Positions 35,704 to 39,250 of a DNA stretch of 39,250 nucleotides are shown piece after piece. Both the position numbers and the translations under genes were made by a program. Source of the stretch: Sulfuricurvum sp. PD_MW2 (lineage in GTDB: Bacteria > Campylobacterota > Campylobacteria > Campylobacterales > Sulfurimonadaceae); the NCBI RefSeq assembly GCF_002633015.1, contig NZ_NSIU01000021.1:1-39250 (forward strand), given 5' to 3'. Positions within the stretch are counted from its first letter, which is position 1, and each line of letters opens with the position of its first letter. The notes beneath the pieces were generated by a model that saw nothing but the letters and a program-made list of their open reading frames with translations, was not told the origin of the DNA and searched no databases.

Positions 35704-36309
35704 ATGGCTATGAAAATCAGATTATTATTGCGCTATATTTTTGTCGGGGCATTGTCTTTGTTTCCATTGATTTTGGTGATTATCGTCGTCAATTATCTCA
35801 AAAATCTAGGCGTTAGTGCGTATCTTTCACTTCATGATTACACGAATTCGTTTGGGGTTACATTAGCATTAATGGCAGGTGTTATTGCTATTTTTGCAGT
35901 GCTTGGATTTTCGATCGAGAAGTATGGGCGTTCCATTTTTGTTTCTATGATCGATAGTACGTTTGAAAAAATTCCTGCAATCCGTTCGGTCTATTCGGTC
36001 TCGAAAAAATTGGCAGCCATGTTGAGTGGAGGAGAAGACGGTACGAAAAAAGAGGTGGTATTGGTTGAGTATCCCAAAGAGGGATTATGGGTTCCGGCGT
36101 ATTTGTTGAACCGCCATGAAAATATTTGTGTACTTTTTATTCCTACTTCCCCGAATCCGACCAGCGGATATACCGTGTTGGTAGATGATACAAAAATCAA
36201 AAAAACAACGTTGAGTCTTCAGGAAGCTTCCTCGTTTATCATCAGTATGGGTGCTGATTTTCCTCAAAAAGAGGCCGTATCAGCCCTTATTCAAAGTCAT
36301 CAAAATTAA
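35704..36309 (+). CDS. DUF502 family inner-membrane protein
   Basis: A 201-residue protein with two N-terminal membrane helices (IFVGALSLFPLILVIIVVNYL and LALMAGVIAIFAVLGFSIE) and a soluble domain holding the DUF502 pattern IPAIRSVYSVSKKLAAMLSGG, VVLVEYPKEGLWVPAYLL and IPTSPNPTSGYTVLVDD. The family is shared with plant COV1-like proteins and has no proven biochemical role in bacteria. AAAAGG stands nine bases before ATG 35704. Earlier in-frame ATGs at 35629 and 35686 would lie at or upstream of the promoter. It converges on the kinase gene with a four-base overlap. Confidence 0.85.
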   Translation: MAMKIRLLLRYIFVGALSLFPLILVIIVVNYLKNLGVSAYLSLHDYTNSFGVTLALMAGVIAIFAVLGFSIEKYGRSIFVSMIDSTFEKIPAIRSVYSVSKKLAAMLSGGEDGTKKEVVLVEYPKEGLWVPAYLLNRHENICVLFIPTSPNPTSGYTVLVDDTKIKKTTLSLQEASSFIISMGADFPQKEAVSALIQSHQN

Positions 36310-36995
36310 AGAGATTGATCAATGCAGGTTTTTTGAAATTTTTCTTGTATAGAAACTATCGAATCAAATCGACGCATTATGGCATCACTCCGTAATGGAA
36401 AAGCACATATAATCTTTTTTGGTGCCCCAGTTTTTTGAAGTAAATAACGGATGAAACGGCTTGTTTCAATAATATCTTCTTCAATTGACGATTCTCTATG
36501 GAATGTTTCAGGAAATTTCATATCTATGATGGTTACATCACCATTTGAATCGACAATACAGTTGCTTACGGAGAGATCCCCGATAGATACATTTTGTTGA
36601 TGACATTCAAAGATAATAGCGAGATATTTTTCAATAATTGTATAAAAGCATTTATACGAAACATGCCGTTTCATCATAGCACGTATAGTCTCGCCTTCAA
36701 TATATGAAGTAATAAGATAATGAGCGTTAAGACTTTGATCATACCCACTCTCTTGAATTTGCACAATACCATTGATTCTTTTTAGTTGGCGTAATTTTTC
36801 AGAGATACTTTTAATAAAAATATGATCATTATTCTGCCGATAAAGAATTTTAATTGCAACTTTACTTCCCTGAAGAGTTAATGCTTCATAAACCTCACCT
36901 TCCCAACCTCTTCCTAATTGTCTAATAATACGATAAGAGCCGACATGCGTTCCTTGTGCAAGTTGAAAACTAGGTAAATAATCAGGTAAAAACAT
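36306..36995 (-). CDS. Minimal eukaryotic-like protein kinase with altered HRD and DFG motifs
   Basis: A 229-residue protein with a Hanks-kinase outline. The glycine loop is LGRGWEGEVYEA (residues 27-38), the ATP-binding Lys is K49 in VAIKIL, the catalytic loop is SIGDLSVSNC (D140 and N145) and the metal-site Asp is D158 in IIDMKF. Thus Lys, both Asp and Asn are kept, but HRD reads IGD and DFG reads DMK. The C-lobe is short and there is no membrane or sensor domain. It could be an active atypical kinase or a small-molecule kinase. AAAGGA precedes the ATG, and an operator-like palindrome lies 33 bases upstream. It is the last gene of the accessory island on the minus strand. Confidence 0.8.
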   Translation of the reverse strand: MFLPDYLPSFQLAQGTHVGSYRIIRQLGRGWEGEVYEALTLQGSKVAIKILYRQNNDHIFIKSISEKLRQLKRINGIVQIQESGYDQSLNAHYLITSYIEGETIRAMMKRHVSYKCFYTIIEKYLAIIFECHQQNVSIGDLSVSNCIVDSNGDVTIIDMKFPETFHRESSIEEDIIETSRFIRYLLQKTGAPKKIICAFPLRSDAIMRRFDSIVSIQEKFQKTCIDQSL

Positions 36996-37028
36996 AGTAT
37001 GTTCCTTTTTTTATAAAATGATATTTAT

Positions 37029-37052
37029 AAACATGGACATAATATGTCTAAA
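37029..37052 (-). promoter_or_regulatory. Operator-like palindrome, site 1 (before the kinase gene)
   Basis: On the minus strand the core is GACATATTATGTC, a perfect palindrome (37036-37048), flanked by TTTA and CATGTTT. The site begins 33 bases upstream of the kinase ATG, and TAGACA inside it could serve as a -35 box. It matches site 2 at 18 of 24 positions. Confidence 0.6.
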
Positions 37053-37062
37053 TGTGAAAAAA

Positions 37063-37422
37063 CTATATTACAGATACTGAGCTTTTAAATTGAAGATAAT
37101 TTTTGAGATACGATTTGATGTTTTCAGCACCAACAGGGTTTTGAGAATGAATATTGAATGAAAAATGATTCGGTATTTTGATAAGCCCATTCATATCCAT
37201 TTCAACAATCCATTTTGCCAAGTCATATCCAGTAGGAAGAATCTTCCCTGTATTATCCATGCCTAAATCATGGTCAAATGATATAAATATAGGAGCACCG
37301 TATTGCTGTATTAGAATTTGTGCTTCTGCTACAGTACGAGCAATAATATAGGTATTATTAGGCGGCATCCGAATATCATCAATATAAAGCTTCCAATCAA
37401 AATGTACATTAGAAGGGAACAT
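37063..37422 (-). CDS. Cyclic-phosphate processing receiver-like (cREC) protein
   Basis: A 119-residue protein that matches my picture of the cREC family: an N-terminal LYIDDIRMPP (D15, D16), an alpha helix RTVAEAQILIQQYG, the core IFISFDHDLGMDN (D50, D52) and a C-terminal half PNHFSFNIHSQNPVGAENI with the His-x-x-N-P-x-G motif. The fold is receiver-like but is proposed by comparative genomics to act on cyclic phosphates of RNA or nucleotides rather than in two-component relays. Its ATG overlaps the upstream acidic-protein gene by 14 bases, so the two are coupled. The biochemical role here is not established. Confidence 0.75.
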   Translation of the reverse strand: MFPSNVHFDWKLYIDDIRMPPNNTYIIARTVAEAQILIQQYGAPIFISFDHDLGMDNTGKILPTGYDLAKWIVEMDMNGLIKIPNHFSFNIHSQNPVGAENIKSYLKNYLQFKSSVSVI

Positions 37423-37714
37423 TTATACACTCGCAATCTTTTGGATAATGCTTTATGTATTTCTTCCAAAACGTATCACCGTCCACATGTCCGCTTTCAT
37501 TTTCATTATCATCATCACATACACTGATTAGTGCATAATCTAGATTTTCAGCATCACAATCACAATAAATTTCAAAACAACCAAAATCCATAAATGAAAA
37601 AATTACAATAACTTTACCGTCATTATCTATGCTAGCCATCGAATGTTCCATAAGCTGATTCAGTTGTTGAATAGTGAGTATTTTTAGGAGTTTGGAGTGA
37701 TAACAATGTTTCAT
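37409..37714 (-). CDS. Acidic cysteine-rich protein of unknown function
   Basis: I do not recognise this 101-residue protein. It starts MKHCYHSKLLKILTIQQLN, has a central strand pair IVIFSFMDFGCFEIYCDCDAEN and an acidic stretch CDDDNENESGHVDGD, and ends KDCECINVPF. Seven cysteines, several paired closely (CDC, CEC), suggest metal binding or disulfides. The ATG at 37714 has AAGGA eight bases upstream; a start 15 codons earlier would run into the promoter region. It is translated together with the cREC protein, so it may be its partner. An operator-like site stands 39 bases upstream. Confidence 0.65.
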   Translation of the reverse strand: MKHCYHSKLLKILTIQQLNQLMEHSMASIDNDGKVIVIFSFMDFGCFEIYCDCDAENLDYALISVCDDDNENESGHVDGDTFWKKYIKHYPKDCECINVPF

Positions 37715-37753
37715 TAAATGTCCTTCTGCGAATATATATACCATTATCACGAA

Positions 37754-37777
37754 AGACATAGACTTATTTTGTCTATA
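37754..37777 (-). promoter_or_regulatory. Operator-like palindrome, site 2 (before the acidic-protein/cREC unit)
   Basis: On the minus strand the core is GACAAAATAAGTC with outer arms ATAGAC/GTCTAT (37758-37776). It has the same flanks as site 1 (TAGACA before, ATGT after) and lies 39 bases upstream of the ATG, between this gene and the WYL regulator gene. Confidence 0.6.
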
Positions 37778-37782
37778 TGGAA

Positions 37783-38727
37783 TTATAGGAAGGATTCTTG
37801 TAAATACTGGGCGAGCGATTTATTGAAATTTTCTTGAATGTGTATTGGTTCGATCACACGTACTTTTGGCAACCAATATTTTAAAATGGGATATATCTCT
37901 TCATCATTTGTCACTTTAAGAACTAATTCGGCACTACCATCAGATTGTATGTATAACTTTTGATTTTTTGAGATAGGTTTACGTTCGAAATAAACGATTA
38001 TGTCTTCATCAATCCATAACCGTACCTCATAAGGCTTGATATCCGTCGAAAACCATATATTAATAGCACTTTCGAGGTAGTCCATAATTTTGGGATCGCG
38101 TTTGAACACTTTATCGGTCATAGTGCATTTGGCTATGGATTTGATATAAAACTTTTTTGTGTATTGTTTATGTTGTGCCAGAAGATACCAAAATCCCTCA
38201 TAAACGATCACTTTGAGGGGCTTCACATGAATATACTCTTTGGTAGTATTTTCACCGTATGGAATATATGAGAGAGACACTTCAAATTTTTTTTCGATTG
38301 CTTTTTCTAATTGCACCATGATGTTAAATTTACTGCCAACATCTTCAATATCTAAACGGGTATAAAATGGTGATTTAATTTGTCGTTGTAGCCGTTCTAA
38401 TAAGGGATGTGCTTTTTTATAAAAATCTACTCCTATATCTTTTACCATGCTTTCCAACATTTCAAGAACCATGTCTCCATCATTACGAGAATGTTTTGTT
38501 AGAGGTTTACGGTATCGTTTTTTATCCTCACTACGTTCAACTTTTTGTGGATACATTTGTTTGAGTTTATCGAAATCACGTTGGATAGTTTTTGGAGTAA
38601 CTTCCCACTCTTTAGCTAATTGACCGATAGAGAGTTCTTCACCATTATCCAGTCGCTCTAGTATTTCAGCGTGGCGCTTATGTTGAAGAGGGTTTCCACG
38701 CAATCCGGTTTCGGCTAGAATTGCCAT
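37783..38727 (-). CDS. WYL-domain transcriptional regulator with N-terminal helix-turn-helix
   Basis: A 314-residue DNA-binding protein. Residues 15-65 form a DeoR-type winged helix (RHAEILERLDNGEELSIGQLAKEWEVTPKTIQRDFDKLKQ). The WYL domain is at about 150-235 with HVKPLKVIVYEGFWYLLAQH, which contains the name-giving Trp-Tyr-Leu, followed by the WCX-like C-terminus (VLKVTNDEEIYPILKYWLPKVRVIEP). WYL regulators often control phage-defence islands and sense nucleotide or nucleic-acid ligands (for example BrxR, CapW). Here it is the only regulator of the island and the natural candidate to bind sites 1 and 2. The ribosome site is weak (AAAGAAC). Confidence 0.88.
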   Translation of the reverse strand: MAILAETGLRGNPLQHKRHAEILERLDNGEELSIGQLAKEWEVTPKTIQRDFDKLKQMYPQKVERSEDKKRYRKPLTKHSRNDGDMVLEMLESMVKDIGVDFYKKAHPLLERLQRQIKSPFYTRLDIEDVGSKFNIMVQLEKAIEKKFEVSLSYIPYGENTTKEYIHVKPLKVIVYEGFWYLLAQHKQYTKKFYIKSIAKCTMTDKVFKRDPKIMDYLESAINIWFSTDIKPYEVRLWIDEDIIVYFERKPISKNQKLYIQSDGSAELVLKVTNDEEIYPILKYWLPKVRVIEPIHIQENFNKSLAQYLQESFL

Positions 38728-38752: not shown

Positions 38753-39187
38753 TCATGGATTTTCCCAGCTTTGTTCTCGATCTTTCCATAAAGCTTGAGC
38801 ATCATCGTAATCAATCAGCCATAAACAAGCATTATTTGTAATGGGATCATGATGAGGATCACCGTATTTTTCACATAGTGCAAAATAAACATCACTTTCG
38901 ATATCGGCATCAATTGCAATACTTCCCAAATAAGGCCAAATGATATGGTCAGTAGATACCAGATCACCCACCTCTACAAGAGGTACTTTTGGAAAATAGT
39001 TTTTCATAAACATTAAAAATTCTTCTCTTGCATTCTCATCCGTTTCGTTTGCTTGAAGATATTTGTCCTGCATTTCATCTGTCAGTTCCAATTTAAACGC
39101 ATGAATGTCATTGTATGTTCGATTAAAGACCATCCAAATCGTATCTTTTTCCCGTATCGTTGCGGCATATTGTTCGATAACATACAT
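38753..39187 (-). CDS. Hypothetical acidic protein upstream of the WYL regulator
   Basis: A 144-residue protein with no family I recognise. It starts MYVIEQYAATIREKDTIWMV and contains several charged, Trp- and Tyr-bearing segments (FLMFMKNYFPKVPLVEVGDLVSTDHIIWPYLG, DVYFALCEKYGDPHHDPITNNACLWLIDYDDAQALW). There is no signal peptide or membrane helix, so it should be cytoplasmic. I chose ATG 39187, with GAGAGAG before it; a GTG at 39217 would add ten residues. It lies 25 bases upstream of the WYL gene on the same strand and may be co-transcribed with it. The promoter is outside the window or lost at the contig end. Confidence 0.68.
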   Translation of the reverse strand: MYVIEQYAATIREKDTIWMVFNRTYNDIHAFKLELTDEMQDKYLQANETDENAREEFLMFMKNYFPKVPLVEVGDLVSTDHIIWPYLGSIAIDADIESDVYFALCEKYGDPHHDPITNNACLWLIDYDDAQALWKDREQSWENP

Positions 39188-39224
39188 AGAAACTCTCTCT
39201 ACTATTAAGTTTTTCACATGACAG

Positions 39225-39250
39225 CTGGCTCTTATACAAATCTTACGCTT
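39225..39250. other. Probable sequencing adapter (Tn5 mosaic end plus Nextera primer start) at the contig end
   Basis: The first 19 of these bases, CTGGCTCTTATACAAATCT, differ at two positions from the Tn5 mosaic end CTGTCTCTTATACACATCT used in tagmentation libraries. The next seven (TACGCTT) match five of seven of the adapter continuation GACGCTG. The run ends exactly at the window end, so it is most likely adapter read-through with base errors and not genome. Confidence 0.72.

Follow-up and report, generated by a model that had tools for sequence, protein, structure and literature searches.

Two operator-like palindromes in an accessory island of Sulfuricurvum sp. PD_MW2 and their probable use by a DriD-like WYL activator

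The window, that is, the whole stretch of DNA analyzed here, is the entire contig C2 (39250 bases) of the 2.26 Mb draft genome of Sulfuricurvum sp. PD_MW2. An accessory island lies toward its right end, with the following genes:

36306..36995, minus strand: small Ser/Thr protein kinase (Pfam Pkinase), presumed target of site 1
37063..37422, minus strand: cREC_REC (PF20274), a cyclic-phosphate-processing receiver domain protein, second gene of the site 2 unit
37409..37714, minus strand: acidic protein, family unassigned, whose ATG (37714) is preceded by an AAGGA-type ribosome site; presumed target of site 2
37783..38727, minus strand: WYL regulator with wHTH, helical bundle, WYL and WCX parts (Pfam HTH_DeoR/HTH_11, WYL, WCX), the proposed operator reader
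38753..39187, minus strand: 154-aa protein of a family recurrent in such islands, of which genome G060 has a 78% identical copy immediately ahead of its WYL gene

The nearest defence models of the kinase are PD-T4-6 and MAD6, which cover the kinase domain only. The other 227 genomes of the family gave no homologue at E<=1e-25, so this gene is probably a recent arrival; it nevertheless carries the operator-promoter module described below. CapK/CapS (PMC13373217) was also considered for the kinase and dropped, as CapK resembles anti-sigma kinases and the protein of the window is of the Pkinase type. A relative of the acidic protein in G060 (locus L042) likewise stands behind an operator. The five window genes scanned gave no match to CBASS, and no BREX genes were seen here. 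At the right end, window positions 39225-39249 match the Nextera transposase adapter at 22 of 25 bases, so this end is read as a sequencing artefact and the GTG at 39217 is a doubtful start; the 154-aa protein probably starts at ATG 39187. The start of contig C72 of the same genome also looks like such an adapter.

The missing part of the island is probably carried by the left end of contig C29 (locus L050, G000:C29, positions 1-1368). A gene pair diverges there around a third operator (858-870): one member is a 269-aa fragment of a PD-(D/E)XK nuclease gene, and the other, of 150 aa, is a shortened relative of a 480-aa deacetylase-domain protein. The gene order in G060 (L042) is the 480-aa gene, an operator, a 297-aa PD-(D/E)XK nuclease, the 154-aa relative, WYL, an operator, the acidic protein and cREC. 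By comparison with this order, C29 most likely continues the island at the window's right end, so that transcription of the WYL gene would come from the C29 operator.

The original prediction had placed two palindromes, agreeing at 18 of 24 positions, in front of the kinase and acidic-protein genes. Both were found:

37036..37048: site 1 operator core, minus strand GACATATTATGTC, plus strand GACATAATATGTC; a perfect dyad with one central base (GACATA-A-TATGTC)
37761..37773: site 2 operator core, minus strand GACAAAATAAGTC, plus strand GACTTATTTTGTC; an imperfect dyad

The changed half-site of site 2 is the promoter-proximal arm, with AGTC in place of TGTC. Compared over 24 bases, the two sites agree at 18 positions in each of two registers, and at 19 when best aligned. 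The flanks immediately beyond the core are identical at only 5/12 and 4/12 positions, which argues against a recent duplication. The distances of 33 and 39 bases to the ATGs given earlier hold when counted from the edges of the 24-mers; from the core edge, there are 40 bases between site 1 and the kinase start (first base 36995) and 46 between site 2 and the acidic-protein start (37714).

The genome was searched by patterns, and matches within the window were ranked by a weight matrix of 29 columns, trained on 27 sites from 12 other loci with the window excluded. Site 1 (21.9 bits) and site 2 (16.6 bits) took the first two ranks, in this order, and the third-best match (7.9 bits) was no better than chance. 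Matches of 16.6 bits are expected 0.065 times per window in Markov random sequence, where none of 21.9 bits was seen. The pattern shared by the two sites, CATNGACN7GTCTANATG, which was chosen post hoc, has exact matches in the draft genome at sites 1 and 2 only. The motif is not frequent at random places in the genome. One motif match on C72 falls within coding sequence and was taken as chance.

Loci with relatives of the WYL gene (37783-38727) were gathered from 228 family genomes and further genome contigs. An unbiased count of dyads (256 four-base half-sites with 13 spacers of 0-12 bases) was made in 13 loci of the window's WYL clade, the window being excluded. The most enriched dyad was GACA-N5-TGTC, with 24 occurrences against 1.6 expected, a core that also reads as GAC-N7-GTC. 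This enrichment was found in Sulfuricurvum, Sulfurimonas and Sulfurovum loci of the clade; the motif is thus kept in relatives, around genes of the window's WYL clade. Of the 37 motif matches in 8 genomes, 17 lay <=10 kb from the WYL gene (~0.35 expected). The N5 sites were rarely inside ORFs (4/42, compared with 81% of random points) and mostly 40-60 bases before a start codon (36/42). A control pattern with a four-base spacer gave 0-6 matches per strand and genome, none at island sites. Most members of the genus without this WYL clade have 0-1 motif matches, and for this reason a reading as a general SOS box was dropped. That the palindromes are a chance resemblance in AT-rich DNA is exceedingly improbable: site 2 is imperfect and the shared pattern was picked after being seen, but a matrix trained without the window ranks the two sites first and second, the -10 rule given below holds at both, the dyad is enriched in relatives and the shared pattern is unique to them in the genome. 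On this sequence evidence, the observation is confirmed and palindromes 1 and 2 are genuine control sites.

Loci with more distant WYL proteins (n=21; 33-40% identity) gave a different top dyad, GACA-N6-TGTC (25 vs 0.6 expected), and GACA-N5-TGTC was absent from these 21 loci. We compared spacer and phylogeny after adding 60 further loci, using a tree of 70 WYL proteins. The window clade has N5, its sister clade has N6 in 17/17 cases, another large group is mostly N6, and a small clade around G044 is mostly N5 again. The spacer label changes 14 times on the tree compared with 24 when shuffled, and none of 200 shuffles was as low. G044 itself carries both classes. Within the 480-aa cargo family, the operators of L042, L050 and L052 are of the N5 class and those of L081, L082 and L086 of the N6 class. 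The WYL protein is therefore the likely reader, since spacer class tracks WYL phylogeny and the spacer of the cargo tracks the resident WYL. A half-site shared by the two classes would demand a conserved recognition helix, as is seen: [KR]46-T47-x-Q49-R50-D51 is kept in both, with T47, R50 and D51 invariant in 59/59 aligned WYL proteins. The earlier proposal of one regulator for both units, with the WYL protein as candidate, is well supported in that the motif follows the WYL clade across genera and the spacer follows its phylogeny. These correlations strongly support common regulation, with the WYL protein as the predicted reader of both sites.

The relatives' sites were oriented by their downstream genes and the distance from the near half-site to a -10 box was recorded. 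TAnnnT stood at offset 12 after TGTC in 36/53 N5 promoters (other offsets <=10/53) and in 35/72 N6 promoters (other offsets <=7/72), homologous promoters being non-independent samples in these counts. The peak is one base wide in both spacer classes. The near half-site is thus at a constant distance to the -10 box in N5 and N6, and the far half-site shifts with the spacer by one base. Following the offset-12 rule of the relatives, we were able to place two boxes in the window:

37018..37023, minus strand: TATCAT, predicted -10 box for the kinase promoter, exactly 12 bases past the TGTC half-site of site 1
37743..37748, minus strand: GATAAT, predicted -10 box for the acidic protein/cREC promoter, exactly 12 bases past site 2

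The C29 operator fits the rule both ways, with TATGAT and TATACT. Moreover, the composite GACA-N5-TGTC-N12-TATACT has about 62 matches in the 228 genomes, against 2 for a reversed control.

TGTC-N12-TAnnnT alone resembles a promoter, and some islands encode 67-aa proteins that look like sigma region 4 by eye, so that the composite element could be the promoter of an unusual sigma factor with the WYL gene as a mere neighbor. We think this improbable, as the far half-site is kept without a divergent gene (20/37 N5 and 71/79 N6 sites are non-divergent), its spacing tracks the WYL clade, and the sigma-like genes occur in three mapped loci only. The composite promoter was also checked in 26 genomes, of which 21 lack a close WYL match: about half of the matches lay <=25 kb from a WYL gene on the same contig, and 9/26 genomes gave no WYL match. 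The latter would be in keeping with a different reader, either another island protein or a chromosomal regulator. However, several of these MAGs are fragmented, the WYL gene alone among the island genes of the window is common to the relatives' loci, and the spacer follows the WYL tree, which leaves such a reader with little likelihood.

The WYL genes themselves are arranged differently from the cargo. In one N6 clade (L110-L133), a likely -10 box precedes the operator, which itself stands ~30 bases ahead of the WYL start. This position of the operator in some N6-class WYL genes suggests autorepression. Where an N5-class WYL gene has a site of its own, TATAAT stands at offset 11, not 12. Autoregulation of the WYL gene may therefore work otherwise than control of the cargo, and the protein may both activate and repress.

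The AlphaFold model of the WYL protein has a pLDDT of 85, with helices 83-118 lying between the HTH and the WYL domain, and a pTM of 0.59, which makes the relative placement of the domains uncertain. In a Foldseek search, the first eight matches were all DriD (best E 6e-15), followed by PafBC (3e-10), CapW (4e-8) and BrxR (1e-7). The DriD C-domain matched the model with Z 17.2, and identity to DriD over the fold alignment was about 17%. DriD was absent from the results of profile and single-sequence searches of the PDB, where other WYL regulators matched weakly, so the link to DriD stands on fold, operator and geometry. The WYL motif and Lys196 are nearly invariant among the aligned WYL proteins. 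The viral contigs searched held no WYL relative, and the plasmids searched held only relatives at <=37% identity.

DriD of Caulobacter is a homodimeric WYL activator induced by ssDNA (PMC12340889; PDB 8TP8), and its operator, ATACGAC-N7-GTCGTAT, spans the -35 of a bidirectional promoter, its distance to the -10 being constant (PMC12340889). DriD and the WYL protein of the window share wHTH, helical bundle, WYL and WCX as well as a GAC-N7-GTC operator, and the published DriD probe ATACGACAGTAACTGTCGTAT contains GACA-N5-TGTC. Both place the site over the -35 at a fixed -10 distance, and the C29 operator corresponds to the bidirectional promoter. They differ in that DriD targets scattered DNA-damage genes, whereas the targets here are clustered accessory operons, and in the -10 distance, which is 12 here and about 11 as read from the published CCNA_03891 promoter. 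The mycobacterial PafBC promoters (tTGTCRgtg-8nt-TannnT, that is, TGTC-N12-TAnnnT; PMC5656591) have the geometry found here, and the basic residues of the recognition helix are likewise four apart (R44/R48 in PafB, 46/50 here; PMC5656591, PMC11804915). PafBC is, however, a heterodimer that needs polymerase to bind a non-palindromic site, while the genome has one gene that matches the WYL query, and the site is a dyad. SiwR, another WYL activator, requires the -26 region (PMC10693628).

The original prediction had taken the repressors BrxR and CapW as its analogy, and a WYL protein of this type would block the promoters until released by a ligand. A defence island is repressed by BrxR through two boxes (PMC9122601). 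BrxR boxes have been described both past the promoter and over the -35 (PMC9122601, PMC9122589), and the Acinetobacter BrxR, which binds in the latter position, is also thought to repress. BrxR and CapW share the domain plan of our protein, and a further resemblance to BrxR is that an island has several boxes for its WYL regulator, with half-sites 5 bases apart. Compared with the two 10-11 base half-sites of BrxR, the sites here have the 5-base spacing, but a different half-site sequence and weak conservation past GACA. CapW is a homodimeric WYL repressor of CBASS whose palindrome overlaps the -10 (PMC9122588), and it is similar in its defence-gene targets, its palindromic operator and its bidirectional effect. 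The sites here, however, end 12 bases upstream of the predicted -10, over the -35, and do not cover the -10 as in CapW. A repressor needs no base-exact -10 distance, but here N5 and N6 promoters alike keep offset 12, and the fold is closer to DriD and PafBC than to CapW or BrxR. Repression, for which the operators downstream of the -10 in some N6-class WYL genes also speak, is thus unlikely at these promoters, and the analogy is unsupported as a working model. Activation is favored because the -10 distance is base-exact as at DriD and PafBC promoters and the fold is closest to DriD.

We therefore propose that a DriD-like WYL activator switches on a modular accessory island, a reading to which we give a probability of roughly two in three, its binding, activation and inducer being inferred. 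The neighboring WYL protein would bind both palindromes as a homodimer, with one wHTH per GACA half-site, and sit over the -35 region of each promoter. It would help RNA polymerase to start at promoters that have a -10 box 12 bases past the near half-site and no good -35, and in this way turn on the kinase gene and the acidic-protein/cREC unit. The third operator (C29) would drive the divergent pair, its right arm carrying the nuclease, 154-aa and WYL genes. By analogy, the trigger could be single-stranded DNA arising through damage or phage attack.

WYL regulators of defence islands have been described mostly as repressors. If this family activates islands, the operator-promoter unit would be a rigid -35 replacement module, providing GACA-N5/6-TGTC-N12-TAnnnT as a rule for finding regulons, and island expression would be tied to a DNA-damage-type signal. 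The first genes behind the relatives' operators encode PD-(D/E)XK nucleases, the deacetylase-domain protein, Sir2, DUF2779, double-AAA and FtsZ-like proteins, as well as Fic, HIRAN, DnaA-like, Cas12a and Cas1 proteins. Many of these operator-linked genes are typical of defence or mobile-element cargo, which would be their putative role. Tentatively, a Campylobacterota family of DriD-like, ssDNA-sensing WYL activators may run plug-in islands, in which unrelated cargo (nucleases, Sir2, Cas12a, kinases, double-AAA) joins by gaining an operator-promoter module, and a one-base change of spacer (5/6) separates paralogous regulons; we hold this possible, somewhat short of an even chance. If true, it would be a natural case of operator spacer coevolution, which may insulate neighboring regulons.

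Cas12a genes were found directly downstream of an N6-class WYL gene and operator in L117 (7048-10710) and L118 (2540-6133). The Cas12a promoters have AAAAAT as the offset-12 hexamer, a poor fit to the -10 rule. In addition, N5-class and N6-class WYL genes occur ~12-14 kb apart on one contig in G104:C26 (L043, L091) and in G208:C120 (L044, L094), and these contigs offer a natural test of regulon insulation. Finally, the Sulfurimonas-like genomes G084, G120 and G185 share another N5 sub-motif, GACANAASCTGTCA, followed by TATACT at offset 12, which perhaps represents a further WYL class.
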